A stretch of DNA of 64,000 bases from a halophilic archaeon SHRA6. Lineage in GTDB: Archaea > Halobacteriota > Halobacteria > Halobacteriales > Haloferacaceae. Made by a program: the position numbers and the translations under genes. Where the stretch lies: assembly GCA_005239175.1 (NCBI GenBank), contig SOPS01000004.1, positions 558,001 to 622,000 on the forward strand, given 5' to 3'. The notes under the pieces are model-generated. The model searched no databases and was not told the origin of the DNA. It saw only the letters and a list, made by a program, of their open reading frames with translations. Shown here piece by piece: positions 1,533 to 10,749 of the stretch. Every line of letters starts with the position of its first letter. Position 1 is the stretch's first letter.

Positions 1533-2282
1533 TCACCCACCGAGGTACAGCTTCGAAACCTCGGGGTTATCAAGCAGCTCGTCGGCGACGTCCTCATAGC
1601 GAACGGTTCCCTGATCGAGCACGTAGCCGCGATCGGAGATCGACAATCCCTCACGGGCATTCTGTTCGACCATCAGGATTGAGGTCCCGAGATCGTTGAC
1701 CGTCCTGACGTTTTTAAACACGTCCTCGACGATAGACGGCGCGAGCCCTGCGCTCGGTTCGTCGATGAGAAGCACATCTGGCTCCATCATAAGCGCCCGT
1801 GAGAACGCGAGCACCTGCCGTTGGCCCCCAGAGAGGGTCCGTGCCTTTGCAGCCCGCTTCTCTTCGAGAATTGGGAAGCGATCGTACAGTTCCGCGATTC
1901 GATCGTCGACGCCGTCCTCGCGGGCGACGCCGCCCATCTGGAGGTTCTCTTCGATCGACAGCGACGGAAACACGTTGTCCGTCTGGGGAACGTAGCCGAC
2001 ACCCATCCGCACGAGGTCTGCGGGTTCGGTCCCGCCGATCTCTTCGCCCCGAAGCGTGACCGAACCAGTCCACGGTTCGAGCAGCCCGAAGGCGGTCTTC
2101 AGCACCGTTGACTTGCCGGCACCGTTCGGACCAATCAAACAGACGATCTCACCCGCTTCGAGATGGAGGTTTAGATCGTCAAGCACCTGCATCTCTCCGT
2201 AGCCGCTGTCGACGCCCGACAGCGACAACACCGGCTCTTCGGTCGGTTCTCGGTGAACGATCGCCGCGTCGTCTGCGCTCAT
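1533..2282 (-). CDS. livF: Branched-chain amino acid-type ABC transporter, ATP-binding protein LivF
   Basis: Second ATPase of a HAAT-family importer (249 aa). Visible motifs: Walker A GPNGAGKST, signature LSGGQRQ, Walker B VLLIDEPSAGL, and the switch His in SILMVEQN context. It is the last gene of a five-gene minus-strand operon and its start overlaps the livG stop by 4 bp, implying translational coupling. LivF and LivG would form the cytoplasmic motor under LivH/LivM. The substrate could be a branched-chain amino acid, urea, an amide or another small organic acid; family alone does not decide. Confidence 0.95.
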   Translation of the reverse strand: MSADDAAIVHREPTEEPVLSLSGVDSGYGEMQVLDDLNLHLEAGEIVCLIGPNGAGKSTVLKTAFGLLEPWTGSVTLRGEEIGGTEPADLVRMGVGYVPQTDNVFPSLSIEENLQMGGVAREDGVDDRIAELYDRFPILEEKRAAKARTLSGGQRQVLAFSRALMMEPDVLLIDEPSAGLAPSIVEDVFKNVRTVNDLGTSILMVEQNAREGLSISDRGYVLDQGTVRYEDVADELLDNPEVSKLYLGG

Positions 2283-3091
2283 GGGCTCCCTCCGAGATAC
2301 GCCTCGATAACGCGTTCGTCAGATCTGACCGCATCTGGCGTATCTTCCATCAATACTCGTCCCTGGTCTAATACGATGATCGGATCGGCAATGCGCATGA
2401 TGAAGCTCATGTCGTGTTCGATGATCAGGAAGGTCTGTCCCTCCTCGTTGAGTTCCTCGATGAATCCGGCGAGCTTCTTCGCGAGTGTCGGATTCACCCC
2501 GGCAACCGGCTCATCAAGCAGCAGAATGTCTGGCTCGGCCATCATCGCACGAGCCATCTCGACGAGTTTGAGCTGTCCGCCAGACAGCTCCGTCGACGGA
2601 GCGTTTGCGAGATGATCGATCTCGAATCGCTCTAACATTCGCTGGGCATCTTCGAGGTTCGCGGCCTCCTCCGTTCGGACCTTCGAACCGCCGAAAAACA
2701 GCGGGAGGATTGATTCGCCTGATTGGCCCTGTGGGCCGACCAACATCGCCTCCCGAACGGTCATACCGTCGAGACGTCGCGGCGTCTGGAACGTGCGCAT
2801 TAGCCCTGATCGGGCGATTTCGTAGGGTTTCATCCCCGAAACCTCGGTGTCGTTGACGTACACCGACCCCGAATCCAGCTCATAGAAGCCAGAGATGAGG
2901 TTGAAAAGCGTTGATTTCCCAGCGCCGTTCGGGCCGATCATGCCGGTGATCGATCCGCGCTCCACGGCGATCGACACGTCATCAGTCGCGGTGAGCCCAC
3001 CGAAGGACTTCTTGAGCGATTCTGTTCGCAACACAGCGTCGTCTTTGTCCAGATTTGCGCCGTCGTAGCTTAACGATAGCTCCGTGCTCAT
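2279..3091 (-). CDS. livG: Branched-chain amino acid-type ABC transporter, ATP-binding protein LivG
   Basis: First ATPase of the importer (270 aa): Walker A GPNGAGKST, signature LSGGQLK, Walker B ILLLDEPVAGVNP, and the H-loop in FLIIEHDM. The DEPVAGVNP variant is typical of LivG, distinguishing it from LivF. It overlaps livF and livM by 4 bp on either side, so the four importer genes H-M-G-F are one translationally coupled unit. Confidence 0.95.
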   Translation of the reverse strand: MSTELSLSYDGANLDKDDAVLRTESLKKSFGGLTATDDVSIAVERGSITGMIGPNGAGKSTLFNLISGFYELDSGSVYVNDTEVSGMKPYEIARSGLMRTFQTPRRLDGMTVREAMLVGPQGQSGESILPLFFGGSKVRTEEAANLEDAQRMLERFEIDHLANAPSTELSGGQLKLVEMARAMMAEPDILLLDEPVAGVNPTLAKKLAGFIEELNEEGQTFLIIEHDMSFIMRIADPIIVLDQGRVLMEDTPDAVRSDERVIEAYLGGSP

Positions 3092-4278
3092 TCGTCAACA
3101 CCTCGCTGTTCGCGGGTAGCCTGTCGCTCCTGCGATCGAGAGTCGTCCGGTGCTGCGCCCGGCCAGATGAGCTCCTCTTTCGGCGGCAAGATCCCTTGCG
3201 GTCGGAACCGGATGACAAGGATGATCAAGAGTCCAACCAACAGAAGTCGGACTGCGGAGACGTTGAGCGCAATTCCCGGGATCGCCTCGAAGAGTGCGAC
3301 GACGAGGTCGATCTCGTTGAGGAACCGCGTCCCCTCCAAGATCGCGACGATCGTCACCGCGCCGACGATCGAGCCGCGATCGCTGCCGGTCCCGCCGAGG
3401 ATGAGCGCCACCCAGACGTAGAACGTCTGCAGCGGTTCGAGTTCACCGGGATCGAGATACTCGAAGGCGTACATGTAAAACCAGCCCGCAACGGCCATCA
3501 GCACGCAGCCGATTACGAACGCCTGCATCTTCATCATGTACGTGTTCTTTCCAAGCGCCTTCGCGAGGTCCTCGTCGGCGCGGATAGTTCGGATGACCCG
3601 TCCCCACGGCGAGCGGTGAATCCGCCGAACGAGGACATATCCGATGAAGAGCAGCCCCAAGATGACGACCGTGTTTCGGGCAGTCCCCACAGAAGCCGTC
3701 GTCGAGAGCAACCTGACAGCCGGTTCGACGGGGAGCCACTCAAACAGCTCCGGTGCGCCGCTGATTCCCCTGCTGCCGGCGGTCCACTCCCGTTCGTTCA
3801 AGAACAAGAGGCGAATAACCTCTGCGAATCCAAGGCTGGCGATCGCGAGGTAGTCCGCCCGAAGTCGCAGTGTCGGGATACCGATGAGCACCGCGACGAT
3901 CGCGGCGGCGACAATCGCGACAACAAGCGCGATGACCGGTGACAAGAGGAGATCGTGCGGCGACCCCGGCGACGTGAGAAGCGCCGCGGCATACGCGCCG
4001 ATCCCCCAGAAGGCGATAACGCTGAAATTAATGAGTCCAGCGTATCCCCACTGGATGTTGAGTCCGACGATCATGAAGCCGTACATCCCCGCGAGACCGA
4101 GGAGATACATGCCGTAGTTGAGGCTCAACACGCCCACAGCCACGAGCATCAAGAAGAAGAGGAAGAACACCCCGACAGCGACGAGGTCTAATATGGAAAC
4201 CCCGAGGTTGCCCGGCTCGACGCGGAGTCGATCGAGGCGTTCGGTCAATCCTGCGCCGTCTGATTGCGATTCGCTCAT
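3088..4278 (-). CDS. livM: Branched-chain amino acid-type ABC transporter permease LivM
   Basis: Membrane permease (396 aa) of the HAAT importer. A charged N-terminus of about 30 residues is followed by 8-10 hydrophobic segments, with the LivM-type stretch GLNIQWGYAGLINFSVIAFWGIGAYAAA near the N-terminal third and a late FYVWVALILGGTGSDRGSIVGA segment, the usual EAA-like coupling region. The C-terminal tail is hydrophilic, as is common in haloarchaea. It overlaps livH by 4 bp and pairs with LivH in the membrane. Confidence 0.94.
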   Translation of the reverse strand: MSESQSDGAGLTERLDRLRVEPGNLGVSILDLVAVGVFFLFFLMLVAVGVLSLNYGMYLLGLAGMYGFMIVGLNIQWGYAGLINFSVIAFWGIGAYAAALLTSPGSPHDLLLSPVIALVVAIVAAAIVAVLIGIPTLRLRADYLAIASLGFAEVIRLLFLNEREWTAGSRGISGAPELFEWLPVEPAVRLLSTTASVGTARNTVVILGLLFIGYVLVRRIHRSPWGRVIRTIRADEDLAKALGKNTYMMKMQAFVIGCVLMAVAGWFYMYAFEYLDPGELEPLQTFYVWVALILGGTGSDRGSIVGAVTIVAILEGTRFLNEIDLVVALFEAIPGIALNVSAVRLLLVGLLIILVIRFRPQGILPPKEELIWPGAAPDDSRSQERQATREQRGVDE

Positions 4279-5234
4279 GTTGTATCATCCCCCAGGATCC
4301 CAGTTGGTCTAACAAGCAAGATTACGATCATGACGATGAACGCGACCGCTGCGTTGTACTGGGTGCCGACGAACGGCAGCGCAGCAGTCATTTCGAAGGC
4401 CATGCCGATCGTGAACCCTCCAAGCATTGCACCGTAGACGCTGCCGATCCCGCCGAGAATGACCGCAGAGAAGATCAAAAGCAGCATCTCGAAACCCATC
4501 CGCGGGCGGATCAGCGTGTCGAGCCCGAGGAACACGCCCCCGGCAGCGGCAAGCACCGCGCCGATGACCCACATTGCGAGGATGATCTCGCCGGTTCGGA
4601 TGCCGCTCACCCGTGCAAGATCAGCGTTATCTGCCGTCGCGCGCATCTTCCGTCCAAGCGTCGTGTACTGTAACAGAAGGTGCAAGCCAACGACGAGGAT
4701 CGCGGTTATTGCCACTGTCACCACATCTCGCGGCGTGATCGCGACGCCTAACGACTCGCTGACCCAGTCGATCCGACCGCTGCGCCCGACACCGTAGGTC
4801 TGGGGATCCGAGCCGAATCCGAGGATAAGCAGCGCCCGGTACGCGAGCGCGACCCCGATGCTCGTAATGAGCAACTCGATCGATCCTGTATCGAGCGGTC
4901 GATACACCAGAAACTCCGTGACCACGACGAGAATCGCCGCCGCAGCCATACCCACGAGCAACGCAACGAAGAACCAGATGGGTAGGCTGAACACGGTCGT
5001 CTCCAATGCGGCGGCGATCGTCGGCGACACTGACACGACTGCTTCAGGCCCAAGCAAATAGTCGTTGACACCGATCGCAACGACGAGCGCCCCGAACGCG
5101 CCGATAGCCATCGTGTCTCCGTGGGCGAAGTTGGCGAAGTTGCCGATACTGTACACCAACGAGAGCCCGATCGATCCCAAGACGATCACGCTGCTATAGA
5201 CGATCCCGTTGACTACGAGTTGTAGTGTAGACAC
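4275..5234 (-). CDS. livH: Branched-chain amino acid-type ABC transporter permease LivH
   Basis: Permease (319 aa) forming the heterodimeric channel with LivM. Recognised by the N-terminal NGIVYSSVIVLGSIGLSLVYSIGNFANFAHGD, the helix-rich profile and the late AVILGGIGSVYGAMLGG segment. The start codon is GTG. The binding-protein gene ends 43 bp upstream, so it belongs to the same operon. Confidence 0.94.
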   Translation of the reverse strand: MSTLQLVVNGIVYSSVIVLGSIGLSLVYSIGNFANFAHGDTMAIGAFGALVVAIGVNDYLLGPEAVVSVSPTIAAALETTVFSLPIWFFVALLVGMAAAAILVVVTEFLVYRPLDTGSIELLITSIGVALAYRALLILGFGSDPQTYGVGRSGRIDWVSESLGVAITPRDVVTVAITAILVVGLHLLLQYTTLGRKMRATADNADLARVSGIRTGEIILAMWVIGAVLAAAGGVFLGLDTLIRPRMGFEMLLLIFSAVILGGIGSVYGAMLGGFTIGMAFEMTAALPFVGTQYNAAVAFIVMIVILLVRPTGILGDDTT

Positions 5235-5277
5235 GTTTTAGCCTCCATATCCTGCATAAATGCCAGCCATCAGCGAA

Positions 5278-6612
5278 TTAGGTCGTGAGGTAATCGCCGA
5301 AGACGTATTCGTGGTCCTCAACCGTGTAAATCTGGTAGAATCCCGGCGGATCACCGTTCTCGTCAAGATCGACCGGACCGCTGACGCCCTCGTAGTTCAG
5401 ATCCGATGGGCTCCCACCGTCGTCGAGGATTGCCTTCGCTTCCTCAAACGTAAACACATCTTCGCCATCTGGACGAGTCACGTCACGGACAACCGCTGTG
5501 AGGGCTTCGGCGGTGAACTCGTCGGCAGCCTCGATCGCGATCGCTGCAATGTGCAACGCGTCGTAGGTGTACGCCGACCAGACGGTTGGCTCCTGGTCGA
5601 ACTCTTCTTCGAACCGAGAGACGTACGACTGGTAGTTATCCTGGTCTTGTGGAGCACTTTCGGTGATTCCTTTGAAGCCGTCTTGGCTCCCGGGTTCGGT
5701 GTTTTCGAGGATCGAATCGGCGATCGTCGACTCCGCGCCGTAGTAGGCGACATCCTCATTGTAGCCCGCATCGAACGCCTGATTGACCATCACCGAGACC
5801 TCGTCGGCGTATGTGAAAAATACCCACGCGCCCGCGTCGGTGTCGGCCATCTCTGACAGTTCGCCGCGATACGAGGAGCCTTCGGGTTCGTGCGGTTCGA
5901 TGTAGCGGAGATCACCCTCGTACTCTTCTTCGAATACGGTCGACAGCGAGTCGCCGTAGTCGTTGTTGATCCACGTGACCGCACAGGACTCGTAGCCGTC
6001 TTCGTACACCATCTCCGCGATGGCCGCACCTTTTGCGGCCCCGCTCGGGCTGGTTCGAAGCAGGTCTGGCTCGGTACTCAGTACCGCGCCGGTGCTGTTT
6101 TGGCTGATATGGACAACGCCTGCCTCCTTGGCGACACTGTTGTGGATCGCCATGCTCGCTCCAGAGCCAACAGTACCGACTAGCAGTGGGACCTCGTCTT
6201 GATTAACGAGTTTCTGTGCTGCGTTGACTGCGCCTTGATTCGACGTCTCATCGTCCTCGAGAAGCACTTCGAGTTCGTCTCCGTCGCCAATACCGACCTC
6301 GTTGATGTCCGCCAAGGCGAGTTCCAACCCGCGGGCATTCCGTTCGCCGTACGGCGCAAGTGAGCCGGTGCGAGAGTCGACCATTCCGATCTCGTAGGTC
6401 GTATCGTCGTCACCGTTGCCGTTTCCGCCATTGCCGTTTCCGCCGTCATCGCCACCATTGCCGTCGTCACCGCCGTTACCGCCGTTGCCCCCATTGCCAC
6501 CGTTTCCGTTACCATCCCCTTCGAGACAGCCGGCGATCGACAGCGCAACCGTCGTTCCGGCTGCCGAGAGCATTGTACGGCGATTCACTGAGTGCGTGTC
6601 ATCGTTGGACAT
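5278..6612 (-). CDS. ABC transporter substrate-binding protein, Tat lipoprotein (LivJ-like)
   Basis: Extracellular substrate receptor (444 aa) of the importer. The N-terminus has the twin-arginine motif NRRTML followed by a hydrophobic stretch and lipobox SIAGC, so it is predicted to be exported folded and lipid-anchored. A low-complexity Gly/Asn/Asp linker (about residues 33-70) tethers a Peripla_BP_6 domain beginning IGMVDSRTGSLAPYG. It is the first gene of the operon and is preceded by a TATA-like TTTAAA and the inverted repeat at 6654-6671. The ligand cannot be named. Confidence 0.92.
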   Translation of the reverse strand: MSNDDTHSVNRRTMLSAAGTTVALSIAGCLEGDGNGNGGNGGNGGNGGDDGNGGDDGGNGNGGNGNGDDDTTYEIGMVDSRTGSLAPYGERNARGLELALADINEVGIGDGDELEVLLEDDETSNQGAVNAAQKLVNQDEVPLLVGTVGSGASMAIHNSVAKEAGVVHISQNSTGAVLSTEPDLLRTSPSGAAKGAAIAEMVYEDGYESCAVTWINNDYGDSLSTVFEEEYEGDLRYIEPHEPEGSSYRGELSEMADTDAGAWVFFTYADEVSVMVNQAFDAGYNEDVAYYGAESTIADSILENTEPGSQDGFKGITESAPQDQDNYQSYVSRFEEEFDQEPTVWSAYTYDALHIAAIAIEAADEFTAEALTAVVRDVTRPDGEDVFTFEEAKAILDDGGSPSDLNYEGVSGPVDLDENGDPPGFYQIYTVEDHEYVFGDYLTT

Positions 6613-6653
6613 GTGTTACGAACACTCATTTTAAATTAGGGAGGATATACATG

Positions 6654-6671
6654 CTCCCGTCCATGGGAGGG
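6654..6671. promoter_or_regulatory. Candidate operator upstream of the importer operon
   Basis: Inverted repeat CTCCC-N8-GGGAG inside CTCCCGTCCATGGGAGGG. It lies 42 bp before the binding-protein ATG, just beyond the TATA-like TTTAAA. The 12-mer TCCCGTCCATGG recurs at 7479-7490, between the regulator and the divergent aldehyde dehydrogenase. The likely ligand is the neighbouring HTH regulator (inference). Confidence 0.6.
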
Positions 6672-6709
6672 TCTCGCAGTCAGGCGGTCTCTCGGTACGA
6701 ATGATCGAG

Positions 6710-7444
6710 TTAGGGATCGAGCAGCTTTGCTTCGGCCTTCCGAAGGTGTTCCAGCAACGTCGTTTTCGAGATATCGAGATCGGCAGCGAGTTCGCGGGTT
6801 GAGGTCTCTCGCGGCCAGTTGTAGTATCCTTCCGCGCGTGCGTGTTCAAACGCGTCGCGCTGTGCTGGTGTGAGTGAGTCGACCCGCTGTTTGCGACTCG
6901 AAGTTGTCGTTGTATCGGCGGTCATGATCGAGGTAATCGTTACTTCTGCTGGGGCATGTTCGCGAACTTGATCAAGTGAGGGTTCGATCTCGCTGCGATC
7001 GCCCATGAAACAGACCTGCCATTCCTCGGAGCCGTCTTCAATTCGGACCGGTTCACTGTGAACAAAGCCGTTTTCTAAAAGCTTTGGGCACACCATGTCA
7101 TTGGGGTCGTACTGCAAAAAGAACTCTCGGACGACGTTACCCGGTGCGTTTCTTGCACGTCCGAAGCGTTCCTGGAGTTCGTGGACCTCGCCAGCTCGAT
7201 CGGACTCGCGAATAATATCCAACAGCCGCTCGACCTCCTCGGTCGTCTCACCGAACGCGGTAAACAATCCGTTCACCGTGGTCTCGGTCTCTGGAGCGCT
7301 CTTTGGAGTATTGTACACGGCGTGGGCCAAAATGCCGCCGTCGACCTGTTCTGTCGCCTCGATCGCCCAGCAGTTCGGATGCCACAGATCAAGCGTCAAT
7401 CGTGTCTGGCCCTGCCCATGGAACGGTTCCTGCGCCTTGCTCAT
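6710..7444 (-). CDS. Bacterio-opsin activator-type HTH (HTH-10) transcriptional regulator
   Basis: Haloarchaeal transcription factor (244 aa). The C-terminal helix-turn-helix reads LTPAQRDAFEHARAEGYYNWPRETSTRELAADLDISKTTLLEHLRKAEAKLL, the diagnostic bat/HTH-10 motif. The N-terminal approximately 180 residues form the usual sensor region (TRLTLDLWHPNCWAIEATE at its start). The ATG at 7444 (MSKAQEP) is preferred over upstream codons because the family fold begins there. Gene order and the duplicated CCCGTCCATGG element suggest it controls both the importer operon and the aldehyde dehydrogenase. Confidence 0.9.
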   Translation of the reverse strand: MSKAQEPFHGQGQTRLTLDLWHPNCWAIEATEQVDGGILAHAVYNTPKSAPETETTVNGLFTAFGETTEEVERLLDIIRESDRAGEVHELQERFGRARNAPGNVVREFFLQYDPNDMVCPKLLENGFVHSEPVRIEDGSEEWQVCFMGDRSEIEPSLDQVREHAPAEVTITSIMTADTTTTSSRKQRVDSLTPAQRDAFEHARAEGYYNWPRETSTRELAADLDISKTTLLEHLRKAEAKLLDP

Positions 7445-7478
7445 GTGTGGTATGAAGTCGTCCCACATACAAGTCTGT

Positions 7479-7495
7479 TCCCGTCCATGGTAGGG
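7479..7495. promoter_or_regulatory. Candidate shared operator between regulator and aldehyde dehydrogenase
   Basis: TCCCGTCCATGGTAGGG, matching the 6654-6671 element over TCCCGTCCATGG and again ending AGGG. It lies in the 81-bp divergent gap, 34 bp from the regulator start and 30 bp from the dehydrogenase start, so one site could serve both promoters. Confidence 0.55.
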
Positions 7496-7525
7496 GAAGG
7501 GCATTTGTCTCTGACACGAAAACGA

Positions 7526-9052
7526 ATGGGTATGGGAGAACCCTTCACACACTACATCGCAGGAGAATGGGACGACGGCGACGGCACAGAGAGGTTCGAG
7601 AGTACGAACCCAGCGACGGGCGAGACGCTCGGAACGTTCGAGCGCGGCACTGAATCAGACATTGATCGGGCGGTCGCCGCGGCCGAGGATGCGTTCGAAG
7701 AGTGGCGATCGCTCTCGTACATCGACCGTGCGGAGTACCTGTGGGACATCTACCACGAACTGCGCGATCGAACCGACGAACTCGGCGAGGTCGTCACAAA
7801 AGAGTGCGGCAAAGAGATCTCGGAGGGCCGCGCCGACGTGATCGAGGCGTACCACATGGTCGAGTGGGCCGCCGGCGACGCTCGCCACCCACAGGGAGAC
7901 GTTGTCCCCTCGGAGATCCCGAGCAAGGACGCGTACATGCGCCGAAAGCCCCGCGGCGTCGTTGGCTGCATTACGCCGTGGAACTTCCCGGTTGCGATCC
8001 CGTTTTGGCACATGGCGGTCACACTCGTTCACGGCAACACGGTCGTCTGGAAGCCCGCTGAACAGACCCCGTGGTGTGGACAGATCATCGCCGAAATGTT
8101 TGACGACGCTGGAATTCCAGCCGGCGTGTTCAACATGGTTCAAGGCTTTGGCGATGCGGGCGCGTCGATCGTCGACGACGAACGCATCGGAACGGTGCTT
8201 TTCACTGGCTCCGCAGAGGTCGGCCACGAGATCGCCGCAAAAGCCGCCCAACAGACTGACAAGCTCGCCGCCTGTGAGATGGGCGGCAAAAACGGGATCG
8301 TGATTACCGCGGAAGCCGACATGGACACCGCGGTCCACTCGGCAGTGATGTCCTCGTTCAAAACGACCGGCCAGCGCTGTGTGTCCTCCGAACGGATCAT
8401 CGTGCACACCGACGTTTACGACGAGTTCAAAGAGCGGTTCGTTGAGGTCGCCTCAAACGTCGCGGTCGGCGATCCACTGGACGAGAATACGTTCATGGGG
8501 CCGCTCATCGAGCCCGAACACAGAGAGAAGGTACGATCGTACAACGATCTCGCCCGCGAGGAGGATGTGAATGTTCTCGTCGATCGCGCTGATCTCGATC
8601 CAGCGGAGATTCCCGACGGCCACGAGGATGGCAACTGGATTGGACCGTTCGTCTACGAGGCCGACCCCTACGCAGACCTCCGCTGTACCCACGAAGAGGT
8701 ATTCGGCCCCCACGTTGCGCTGCTTGAGTACGACGGCGACATCGAGGAGGCTGTCGAGATCCACAACGACACTGAATACGGCCTCGCAGGCGCGATTATC
8801 TCTGAGGATTACCGGGAGATCAATTACTACCGCGATCGCGCTGAGGTCGGCCTCGCCTACGGGAACCTGCCGTGTATCGGCGCGGAGGTGCAGTTGCCGT
8901 TCGGCGGGGTCAAAAAGTCCGGTAACGGCTATCCATCCGCGCGCGAAGTGATTGAAGCCGTCACCGAACGGACTGCCTGGACGCTCAACAACTCATACGA
9001 GATCGAGATGGCCCAGGGGCTGTCCGCAGACATCAAAACGAAAGACGAGTAG
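7526..9052 (+). CDS. NAD(P)-dependent aldehyde dehydrogenase
   Basis: ALDH-superfamily enzyme (508 aa) oxidising an aldehyde to a carboxylate. Visible: cofactor region ITPWNFPVAIPFW and VVWKPAEQTP, general base Glu251 in ACEMGGKN, catalytic Cys285 in GQRCVSS, 34 residues apart as in the family, and the C-terminal LPFGGVKKSGNG. Two in-frame ATGs (7526, 7532) are possible starts. Sharing an operator-like site with the importer suggests it degrades an aldehyde derived from the imported compound. Substrate unknown; it could be a semialdehyde dehydrogenase. Confidence 0.93.
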   Translation: MGMGEPFTHYIAGEWDDGDGTERFESTNPATGETLGTFERGTESDIDRAVAAAEDAFEEWRSLSYIDRAEYLWDIYHELRDRTDELGEVVTKECGKEISEGRADVIEAYHMVEWAAGDARHPQGDVVPSEIPSKDAYMRRKPRGVVGCITPWNFPVAIPFWHMAVTLVHGNTVVWKPAEQTPWCGQIIAEMFDDAGIPAGVFNMVQGFGDAGASIVDDERIGTVLFTGSAEVGHEIAAKAAQQTDKLAACEMGGKNGIVITAEADMDTAVHSAVMSSFKTTGQRCVSSERIIVHTDVYDEFKERFVEVASNVAVGDPLDENTFMGPLIEPEHREKVRSYNDLAREEDVNVLVDRADLDPAEIPDGHEDGNWIGPFVYEADPYADLRCTHEEVFGPHVALLEYDGDIEEAVEIHNDTEYGLAGAIISEDYREINYYRDRAEVGLAYGNLPCIGAEVQLPFGGVKKSGNGYPSAREVIEAVTERTAWTLNNSYEIEMAQGLSADIKTKDE

Positions 9053-9183: not shown

Positions 9184-10749
9184 CTATGTCCGCGCCAGCG
9201 TACGGACGTTCGGCAGGATCATTCCCGCTTCGGCGGTCGGCACCGCGGCGTCGTAATCGAAGTAGCTCTCCGGATTGTTCTCGCCGATCGAGTCACCGTC
9301 GTACGTAATCAGTATCTCGTTATCGTCGATCGCCAGATCTACTGACGAGGCGTTGTTGTACGGCGCGAACTCGAAGACGTACTCGAAGAGATCCTCAACG
9401 CGGGGTGGGTTCGCCGATACGGTTGCGGTACCGTCGATCGAGAGCGAAACGTCCGCGGTAACCCTCTCAAACGTCGATCGAGCAATTTCGGCCACATCGA
9501 CCGGCTGGGTCAAATCGGCACTTTGCCCGTATCGGGCGACCGTCTCGAGATCCTCAACGGTGTGTTCCATCCGACCGGCCGCAGTTGAGACAGTGCCGAG
9601 TGCCGTCTGTGCCTGCGGAACGTCGCCGCTGTCGAGTGCGTTCCCGGCGACTGACACCCACCCCTCGATGACCTGCAGACTGTTGAGCAACTCGTGTCGT
9701 AACGCGCCGGCGAAGCCTTCCAGTTGGTCGTTGTGTCGCTCGAGTTCCCGACGATAGCGTTCAGATTCGGTCACGTCGCTGAGCACGACGAGTTGGCCAA
9801 TCTTGCTTTGGCCGAGCGAGAATGCCGTATCGCTGACGAGGTAGTAGCGAGTCTCACCGTCGACAGACTTCGAGAGGATCGATCGCTCGGACCGACAGGC
9901 AGCGTACACCGCTGGCAGCGCGTCTTCGAGTGGCTCGTTAATTGAGTCTACGAGCTCCGGAAACAACGACTCAGCCCGGCCATTGTACTCGCGGATTCGA
10001 TCCTCTCTGTCCAGATAGATCACCGGCTCGTCAACGTCCTTCGTGAGCTGTGCCACAAAGAACCGATCGCTGACGGCGTAGACAGTCCCGATCGCGAAGA
10101 TCGCCACGCCGATCGGCTCGTAGTTGATATCAATAAACAGCGGGCTCGCAAAGCCTGCAATATCGAAGACAACTGGCAGTGCGGTCACGCCGACGAGCGC
10201 TGCGAGCGGCCTCGTGTCGTAATCCGCTTCCAGAAAGAGTTCGTAGATCATGAAAAAGCCGATTCCTGCGAAGACGTAGGACACGCCTGTGATGATCCAG
10301 TGGACTAACCCGTGCTGGATCGTCATGTGGGTGAACGGCAGTGTTGTGACCGCTGTCGTGAAGTAGAGCCCGTGGATCGGGTTCGTCAGCTTGATAGCCA
10401 CGATCCCGAGATACAGCCCGACCGCAAGGCGACGGTACATCGGCGACGTGTGGAACGATCGGCCCGTATATGCCGAACAAAAGTACAGCCATGCGCCGAT
10501 CGTTGTGAGTCCAACCACCAGACTCAGTGAGTATAGTGCGTAGGCGATCGCCGAGTCGGAAGCCAATAAAAATCCAGTGAGGAGGCCGGCCCATCCTCCG
10601 CTGCCAACGAGCAGTCCGACGAACCCAATACGTGTTTCGCGGTCCTCGATGTGGATCGCACGCCTGAGCGCAACAGCACACGCAACTGTCGTTCCAGCAA
10701 ATACCGCGACATAGAGCCAAAACGAAATCGAACCTGACACAAGAGACAT
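9184..10749 (-). CDS. Sensor histidine kinase with 7TM N-terminus, truncated by in-frame TAG
   Basis: Order of parts: seven hydrophobic segments (about residues 8-225, HisKA_7TM type), a PAS domain starting DEPVIYLDREDRIREYNGRAESLF, the dimerisation/phosphoacceptor helix GALRHELLNSLQVIEGW, and a divergent ATPase domain ending AGMILPNVRTLART. An amber codon (9184-9186) interrupts the frame; the next 24 codons (to TAA at 9109-9111) read GWDASIDTGYDDGLRVVIS..., the normal ending of haloarchaeal kinases of this type. So the protein is shortened by nonsense mutation or read through. ATG 10749 is chosen because a TATA-like box lies about 30 bp upstream; a TTG at 10767 is the alternative. Confidence 0.85.
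   Translation of the reverse strand: MSLVSGSISFWLYVAVFAGTTVACAVALRRAIHIEDRETRIGFVGLLVGSGGWAGLLTGFLLASDSAIAYALYSLSLVVGLTTIGAWLYFCSAYTGRSFHTSPMYRRLAVGLYLGIVAIKLTNPIHGLYFTTAVTTLPFTHMTIQHGLVHWIITGVSYVFAGIGFFMIYELFLEADYDTRPLAALVGVTALPVVFDIAGFASPLFIDINYEPIGVAIFAIGTVYAVSDRFFVAQLTKDVDEPVIYLDREDRIREYNGRAESLFPELVDSINEPLEDALPAVYAACRSERSILSKSVDGETRYYLVSDTAFSLGQSKIGQLVVLSDVTESERYRRELERHNDQLEGFAGALRHELLNSLQVIEGWVSVAGNALDSGDVPQAQTALGTVSTAAGRMEHTVEDLETVARYGQSADLTQPVDVAEIARSTFERVTADVSLSIDGTATVSANPPRVEDLFEYVFEFAPYNNASSVDLAIDDNEILITYDGDSIGENNPESYFDYDAAVPTAEAGMILPNVRTLART

Follow-up and report, generated by a model that had tools for sequence, protein, structure and literature searches.

The locus analysed here raises the question of what a five-gene ABC importer has in common with the regulator gene beside it and with the divergently encoded aldehyde dehydrogenase (ALDH) that follows, and on which substrate they would act together. 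Our data point toward a small proline-utilisation regulon, in which a palindromic operator, probably bound by the HTH_10 regulator, would activate the importer, the ALDH and a proline dehydrogenase (PRODH); we give this reading a probability of about 0.78.

Two copies of one palindrome in the window

Within the window, that is, the whole 64-kb stretch of DNA that was analysed, TCCCGTCCATGG occurs without mismatch at 6655-6666 and 7479-7490 and nowhere else, in agreement with the initial annotation, which had noticed no further copy. Both 12-mers are part of a longer 16-bp palindrome, CCC[G/T]NCCATGGN[A/C]GGG, at 6656-6671 and 7480-7495. The annotation had correctly placed the first copy in a CTCCC/GGGAG inverted repeat next to a TATA-like box and the second in the 81-bp gap between regulator and ALDH; that the second copy, too, belongs to a near-palindrome had escaped it. 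The features of the locus are the following (window positions).

1533..2282, minus strand: importer ATPase 2 (LivF/UrtE-like), ABC_tran
2279..3091, minus strand: importer ATPase 1 (LivG-like), ABC_tran and BCA_ABC_TP_C
3088..4278, minus strand: importer permease 2 (LivM-like), BPD_transp_2; best NCBIfam model LivM, under its cut-off
4275..5234, minus strand: importer permease 1 (LivH-like), BPD_transp_2; best NCBIfam model LivH, under its cut-off
5278..6612, minus strand: substrate-binding protein of an amino-acid type (HAAT) ABC importer, Peripla_BP_6; proline binding predicted
6644..6650, minus strand: TATA-like box GTATATC serving the importer operon, with 5 bp between it and operator 1; spacing recurs in relatives
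6656..6671, no strand: operator 1, ahead of the importer operon, a 16-bp palindrome CCCGTCCATGGGAGGG; conserved before the importer in relatives
6710..7444, minus strand: HTH_10 regulator, 244 aa, with C-terminal HTH_10 domain (PF04967)
7466..7472, minus strand: TTGTATG, tentatively read from the sequence as a TATA-like box for the regulator gene itself
7480..7495, no strand: operator 2, 16-bp near-palindrome CCCGTCCATGGTAGGG in the divergent regulator/ALDH gap; present in 73 of 73 orthologous gaps
7502..7507, plus strand: TATA-like box of the ALDH promoter, CATTTG; relatives have TATTTG or TTATTA
7526..9052, plus strand: ALDH (PF00171), predicted from its context to be an L-glutamate gamma-semialdehyde (P5C) dehydrogenase

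With a binding protein, two BPD_transp_2 permeases and two ATPases in a single operon (1533-6612, minus strand), the importer has the composition of the HAAT type. The gene-side end of operator 1 lies 43 bp from the ATG of the binding protein gene. If the tentative TTGTATG box serves the regulator, autoregulation from operator 2 would be allowed.

Some neighbouring features were seen in passing. Where the importer operon ends, the gap that separates it from an acylphosphatase-like gene (1451-1520) holds three tandem copies, at 28-bp spacing, containing GTCGATCGACACCGCCAT. The binding protein has a low-complexity Gly/Asn/Asp linker after the lipobox region (6404-6510, residues ~33-70), which is unalignable with the sister species and so variable in sequence or length. 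A 7TM-type sensor histidine kinase (9184-10749, minus strand) adjoins the ALDH; it is 91% identical in the sister species, and no close match was found in the other regulator loci searched.

Across the genome as a whole, the element is uncommon. In its 3.36 Mb, CCCGTCCATGG occurs four times, and the only exact copies of the fuller palindrome CCCKNCCATGGNMGGG are these two sites. With up to two mismatches, CCCKNCCATGGNMGGG was found at 30 places genome-wide compared with 31 in a reversed control, and because near-matches do not exceed the control level, a large regulon was rejected. A site with one mismatch (C2:288469) and a site in the sister species (G001, C17:106893) were discounted as intragenic. 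Another candidate, CCCGTCCATGGGGGAG, matches 12 of the 14 fixed consensus positions introduced below and lies ~35 bp before an aconitase-like gene (G000:C3:355833-355848, equivalent to L192:4334-4349); it was left out because a search of the sister species that allowed up to two mismatches did not return it.

Conservation and promoter spacing in relatives

A 12-base match between the 97-bp and 81-bp gaps arose in 1 of 5,000 dinucleotide shuffles, a test chosen post hoc, after the repeat had been seen. Since, furthermore, 833 12-mers recur on the plus strand of the window, which would speak for a chance repeat, the real evidence is not the shuffle test, it is the conservation of the element. 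Whole genomes and a set of 80 named loci supplied the regulator orthologs, a few of these loci being of the same species, with Halalkalirubrum, Haloarcula, Halorubrum, Halobaculum, Halorussus, Haloferax, Halogeometricum, Natronorubrum and Natronomonas among the genera. Inspection of 15 genomes by eye gave the operator consensus, CCCGNCCATGGNCGGG, which was then scored over the 80 loci at 14 fixed positions.

All 73 ALDH-regulator gaps contain a match to at least 11 of the 14 positions (11 in 2 gaps, 12 in 25, 13 in 38 and 14 in 8), and so do 42 of the 43 gaps between PRODH and importer; the one that fails is cut by a segment boundary, and at its locus (L114) the importer is in fact preceded by a site that matches all 14 positions. 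In the background, at least 11/14 was reached by 3.6-4.2% of shuffled gaps and by 2.2% of random 150-bp slices. Sites with at least 13/14 numbered 92 in 0.95 Mb, 90 of them inside ALDH-regulator or PRODH-importer promoter gaps; the remaining two (L077 and L093) lie 94 bp upstream of the regulator gene at loci from which the ALDH is absent. In L104, the ALDH has moved beside PRODH, and an operator site lies between the two genes. No operator was found near the regulator in L087, where the regulator has no recognised neighbours. Part of this conservation comes from shared descent, and many of the loci are from Halorubrum. Nevertheless, conservation over about 80 loci with fixed spacing to the TATA-like box refutes a chance repeat, to which we attach practically no weight. 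The proposal of the initial annotation that importer, regulator and dehydrogenase form one catabolic regulon with a shared operator is therefore well supported, by the rarity of the element as well as by its orthologous conservation. New is the pathway, which is likely that of proline.

In sets of about one locus per genus or major lineage, the columns CC..CCATGG..GG were invariant or nearly so at two promoters and the flanks carried little information, and a T/A-rich, TATA-like block recurs ~6-9 bp after the palindrome. At both promoters, the site is thus directly upstream of TATA at a fixed distance, as expected of an upstream activator site. In the window, the palindrome is 5 bp (importer) and 6 bp (ALDH) away from this box. 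A site just upstream of TATA with constant spacing at three kinds of promoters has the position of an activator site. With sites that end 5-7 bp upstream of the TATA-like boxes, a bound protein could assist in recruiting TBP/TFB, and the likely mode would be activation in the presence of proline or a breakdown product. The same short distance is compatible with a repressor that serves the same regulon through the same operator, blocks TBP/TFB at TATA and is released by proline, since a bound protein could also block TFB. We regard repression as rather unlikely: the spacing is strict, the site lies wholly upstream of TATA at every promoter, as does the upstream activator site of Bat at bop, and the TATA-like boxes are weak (CATTTG, TTATTA), which suggests the need for an activator.

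Proline as the likely substrate

The gene order ALDH, regulator, PRODH, importer recurs in relatives, and in most of them a PRODH gene (PF01619) lies between regulator and importer on the opposite strand. Because PRODH belongs to the same cluster in most relatives, proline is the likely substrate, and the locus would serve proline uptake and the oxidation of proline to glutamate. The window's genus does not have the linked PRODH. The only PRODH of the genome (279 aa) is encoded on contig C1, apart from the ALDH, so that the fusion of PRODH with P5C dehydrogenase (P5CDH) that characterises the PutA autorepressor is not found here.

Linked PRODH promoters contain only the gene-proximal half-site TGGTCGGGT; in 24 loci, it lies, with few exceptions, ~36 nt ahead of the start. 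Upstream of the unlinked PRODH of the window's species we found CCCGACCAAAGACGGG, which matches 12/14 positions with both outer halves intact, 36 nt before the ATG, and whose assignment is based on this position and not on the genome-wide scan, in which near-matches showed no excess. The PRODH of the sister species has the same site upstream. For the stand-alone PRODHs of other genomes, the best match mostly stays below 12/14, and the other PRODHs that score 12 or 13 include some from regulator-linked loci. The linked PF01619 genes of relatives, together with the operator-like site at the unlinked PRODH, are what is expected of a proline-utilisation cluster.

That the linked PRODH was merely relocated is not favoured, because the Halalkalirubrum PRODH groups with the stand-alone copies and not with the linked ones in a protein tree (one FastTree run). 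From this position in a single tree, the simplest reading would be that the linked PRODH was lost and the operator gained by the stand-alone PRODH in Halalkalirubrum. Haloarchaeal PRODHs in general appear as two groups, regulator-linked and stand-alone (L057-L135 versus L055 and L161-L189), and several genomes carry both.

The ALDH is likely the P5CDH because it is linked to PRODH; orthologs beside PRODH are mostly 76-87% identical. Identification by family model failed: the ALDH scored 308.8 bits against the P5CDH equivalog model TIGR01237, with its cut-off of 659.65 bits, no ALDH of the genome reaches this cut-off, and in NCBIfam it is best matched by several ALDH models, each of which scores far under its cut-off. 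We retain the assignment from genomic context. A survey of ten haloarchaeal genomes found PRODH in seven and P5CDH in one (PMC3102087).

A comparable pair is described for Haloferax volcanii, where PRODH (HVO_1191) and the neighbouring aldH2 (HVO_1189), proposed as P5CDH by modelling, were up by 2.9 and 2.1 log2 units on alanine versus ammonium, a comparison that did not involve growth on proline; the authors call the signal for this induction unclear (PMC6801745). This is almost certainly the same locus, because the span given there, 3247 bp, agrees with the 3243 bp from ALDH through regulator to PRODH in the Haloferax locus L125. The two accounts differ in that the published work names neither the intervening regulator nor this operator and in that the motif it proposes, which derives from other genes, is AT-rich. 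HVO_1190 was named in no paper found in our literature search, outside of which subscription journals lay.

A regulon of the same build could serve a substrate other than proline, for instance hydroxyproline, a betaine or branched-chain amino acids, with PRODH being incidental. Indeed, the nearest PDB relatives of the binding protein are branched-chain amino-acid binding proteins, and a gene of the proline racemase/hydroxyproline-epimerase type joins the cluster in L051. We consider this improbable in view of the recurrence of PRODH in the cluster across genera, with the half-site in its promoter, and of two loci of regulator paralogs in which PRODH lies near a symporter whose best model is the sodium/proline symporter PutP, below its cut-off. 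The bacterial put regulon (PutA/PutP) is comparable in that it controls proline uptake and the two-step oxidation to glutamate. In bacteria with a trifunctional PutA, its ribbon-helix-helix domain represses the put regulon (PMC5293562); here, by contrast, separate enzymes go together with an ABC importer and an HTH_10 regulator.

The regulator and its relatives

The HTH_10 domain of the regulator (PF04967, residues 191-242) scored 68.9 bits against a cut-off of 23.1, and regulator and operator belong as a pair to the known HTH_10 class. The palindrome suggests a dimer, and the regulator encoded between the two copies probably binds it in this form. Its targets would be the five-gene importer, the ALDH acting as P5CDH together with, probably, the regulator gene itself, and the PRODH that lies on another contig in the window's species. 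In the AlphaFold2 model (mean pLDDT 80.5, pTM 0.60), the N-terminal half consists of two beta-alpha-beta modules, followed by the helix-turn-helix; that this half senses a ligand is conceivable. A fold search gave a single significant match, 5m86 (Ta1207; E value 3e-4, TM score 0.42), which is uninformative on the ligand.

Among the closest known systems is the Bat regulon of Halobacterium, in which an HTH_10 activator serves the upstream activator site of bop, brp and crtB1. The two systems have in common the HTH_10 domain, the small size of the regulon and the short sites that precede TATA at several promoters (PMC1447603); they differ in site sequence, targets and signal. A Pfam search of the window's regulator (P0001) found no domain besides HTH_10, and it is thereby distinguished from Bat proper, which carries PAS/GAF domains. 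The bop site is a palindrome of ~16 bp as well.

Paralogs of the regulator bear on the question of which protein binds the palindrome. In the sister species (G001, contig C5; L190:4772-8468), a paralog that is 45% identical is encoded with a sodium-dependent transporter and a gene of the proline racemase family, and the transporter promoter contains CCCGACCATGGACGCG immediately followed by ATAAAAATA; judged by these elements, L190 is a second, related regulon with the same operator. A second such locus (L053) has a weaker operator site, and no proline racemase above the cut-off was found in the window's genome. It is conceivable that another factor, for example a nitrogen-limitation regulator, binds the palindrome and that the linked HTH_10 protein acts elsewhere. 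This seems improbable to us, because the sites are confined to genes of the proline locus with no larger gene set and because even the distant paralog of L190 co-occurs with the same operator and a proline racemase gene. That the operator is common to all HTH_10 paralogs was rejected as well: near the regulators of 16 loci with more distant paralogs, it was absent throughout, and the operator therefore goes with the proline-linked branch of HTH_10 regulators. More distant paralogs were also seen beside an amino-acid permease and an M20-type peptidase, or beside a dipeptide-epimerase-like gene (L208-L214 and L218); no CCATGG palindrome was found near these regulators, and they may have operators of their own.

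In sum, we tentatively propose, at somewhat less than even odds for the whole, a widespread haloarchaeal proline regulon under an HTH_10 activator with a tandem-module and possibly amino-acid-sensing N-terminal half, whose operator an unlinked PRODH paralog of Halalkalirubrum would have acquired once the linked gene was lost and whose ALDH would be the missing haloarchaeal P5CDH, overlooked by current models. The ALDH is a candidate for the enzyme that the ten-genome survey did not find in six of the seven PRODH-bearing haloarchaea (PMC3102087). A known operator together with a known metabolic role is rare among haloarchaeal regulators, and both are predicted here for a regulator that is conserved in many genera. 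The predicted exact site and three targets are directly testable in Haloferax, where PRODH and ALDH are co-induced (PMC6801745). If true, the gain of an operator by the unlinked PRODH of Halalkalirubrum would be an example of regulon rewiring in archaea.
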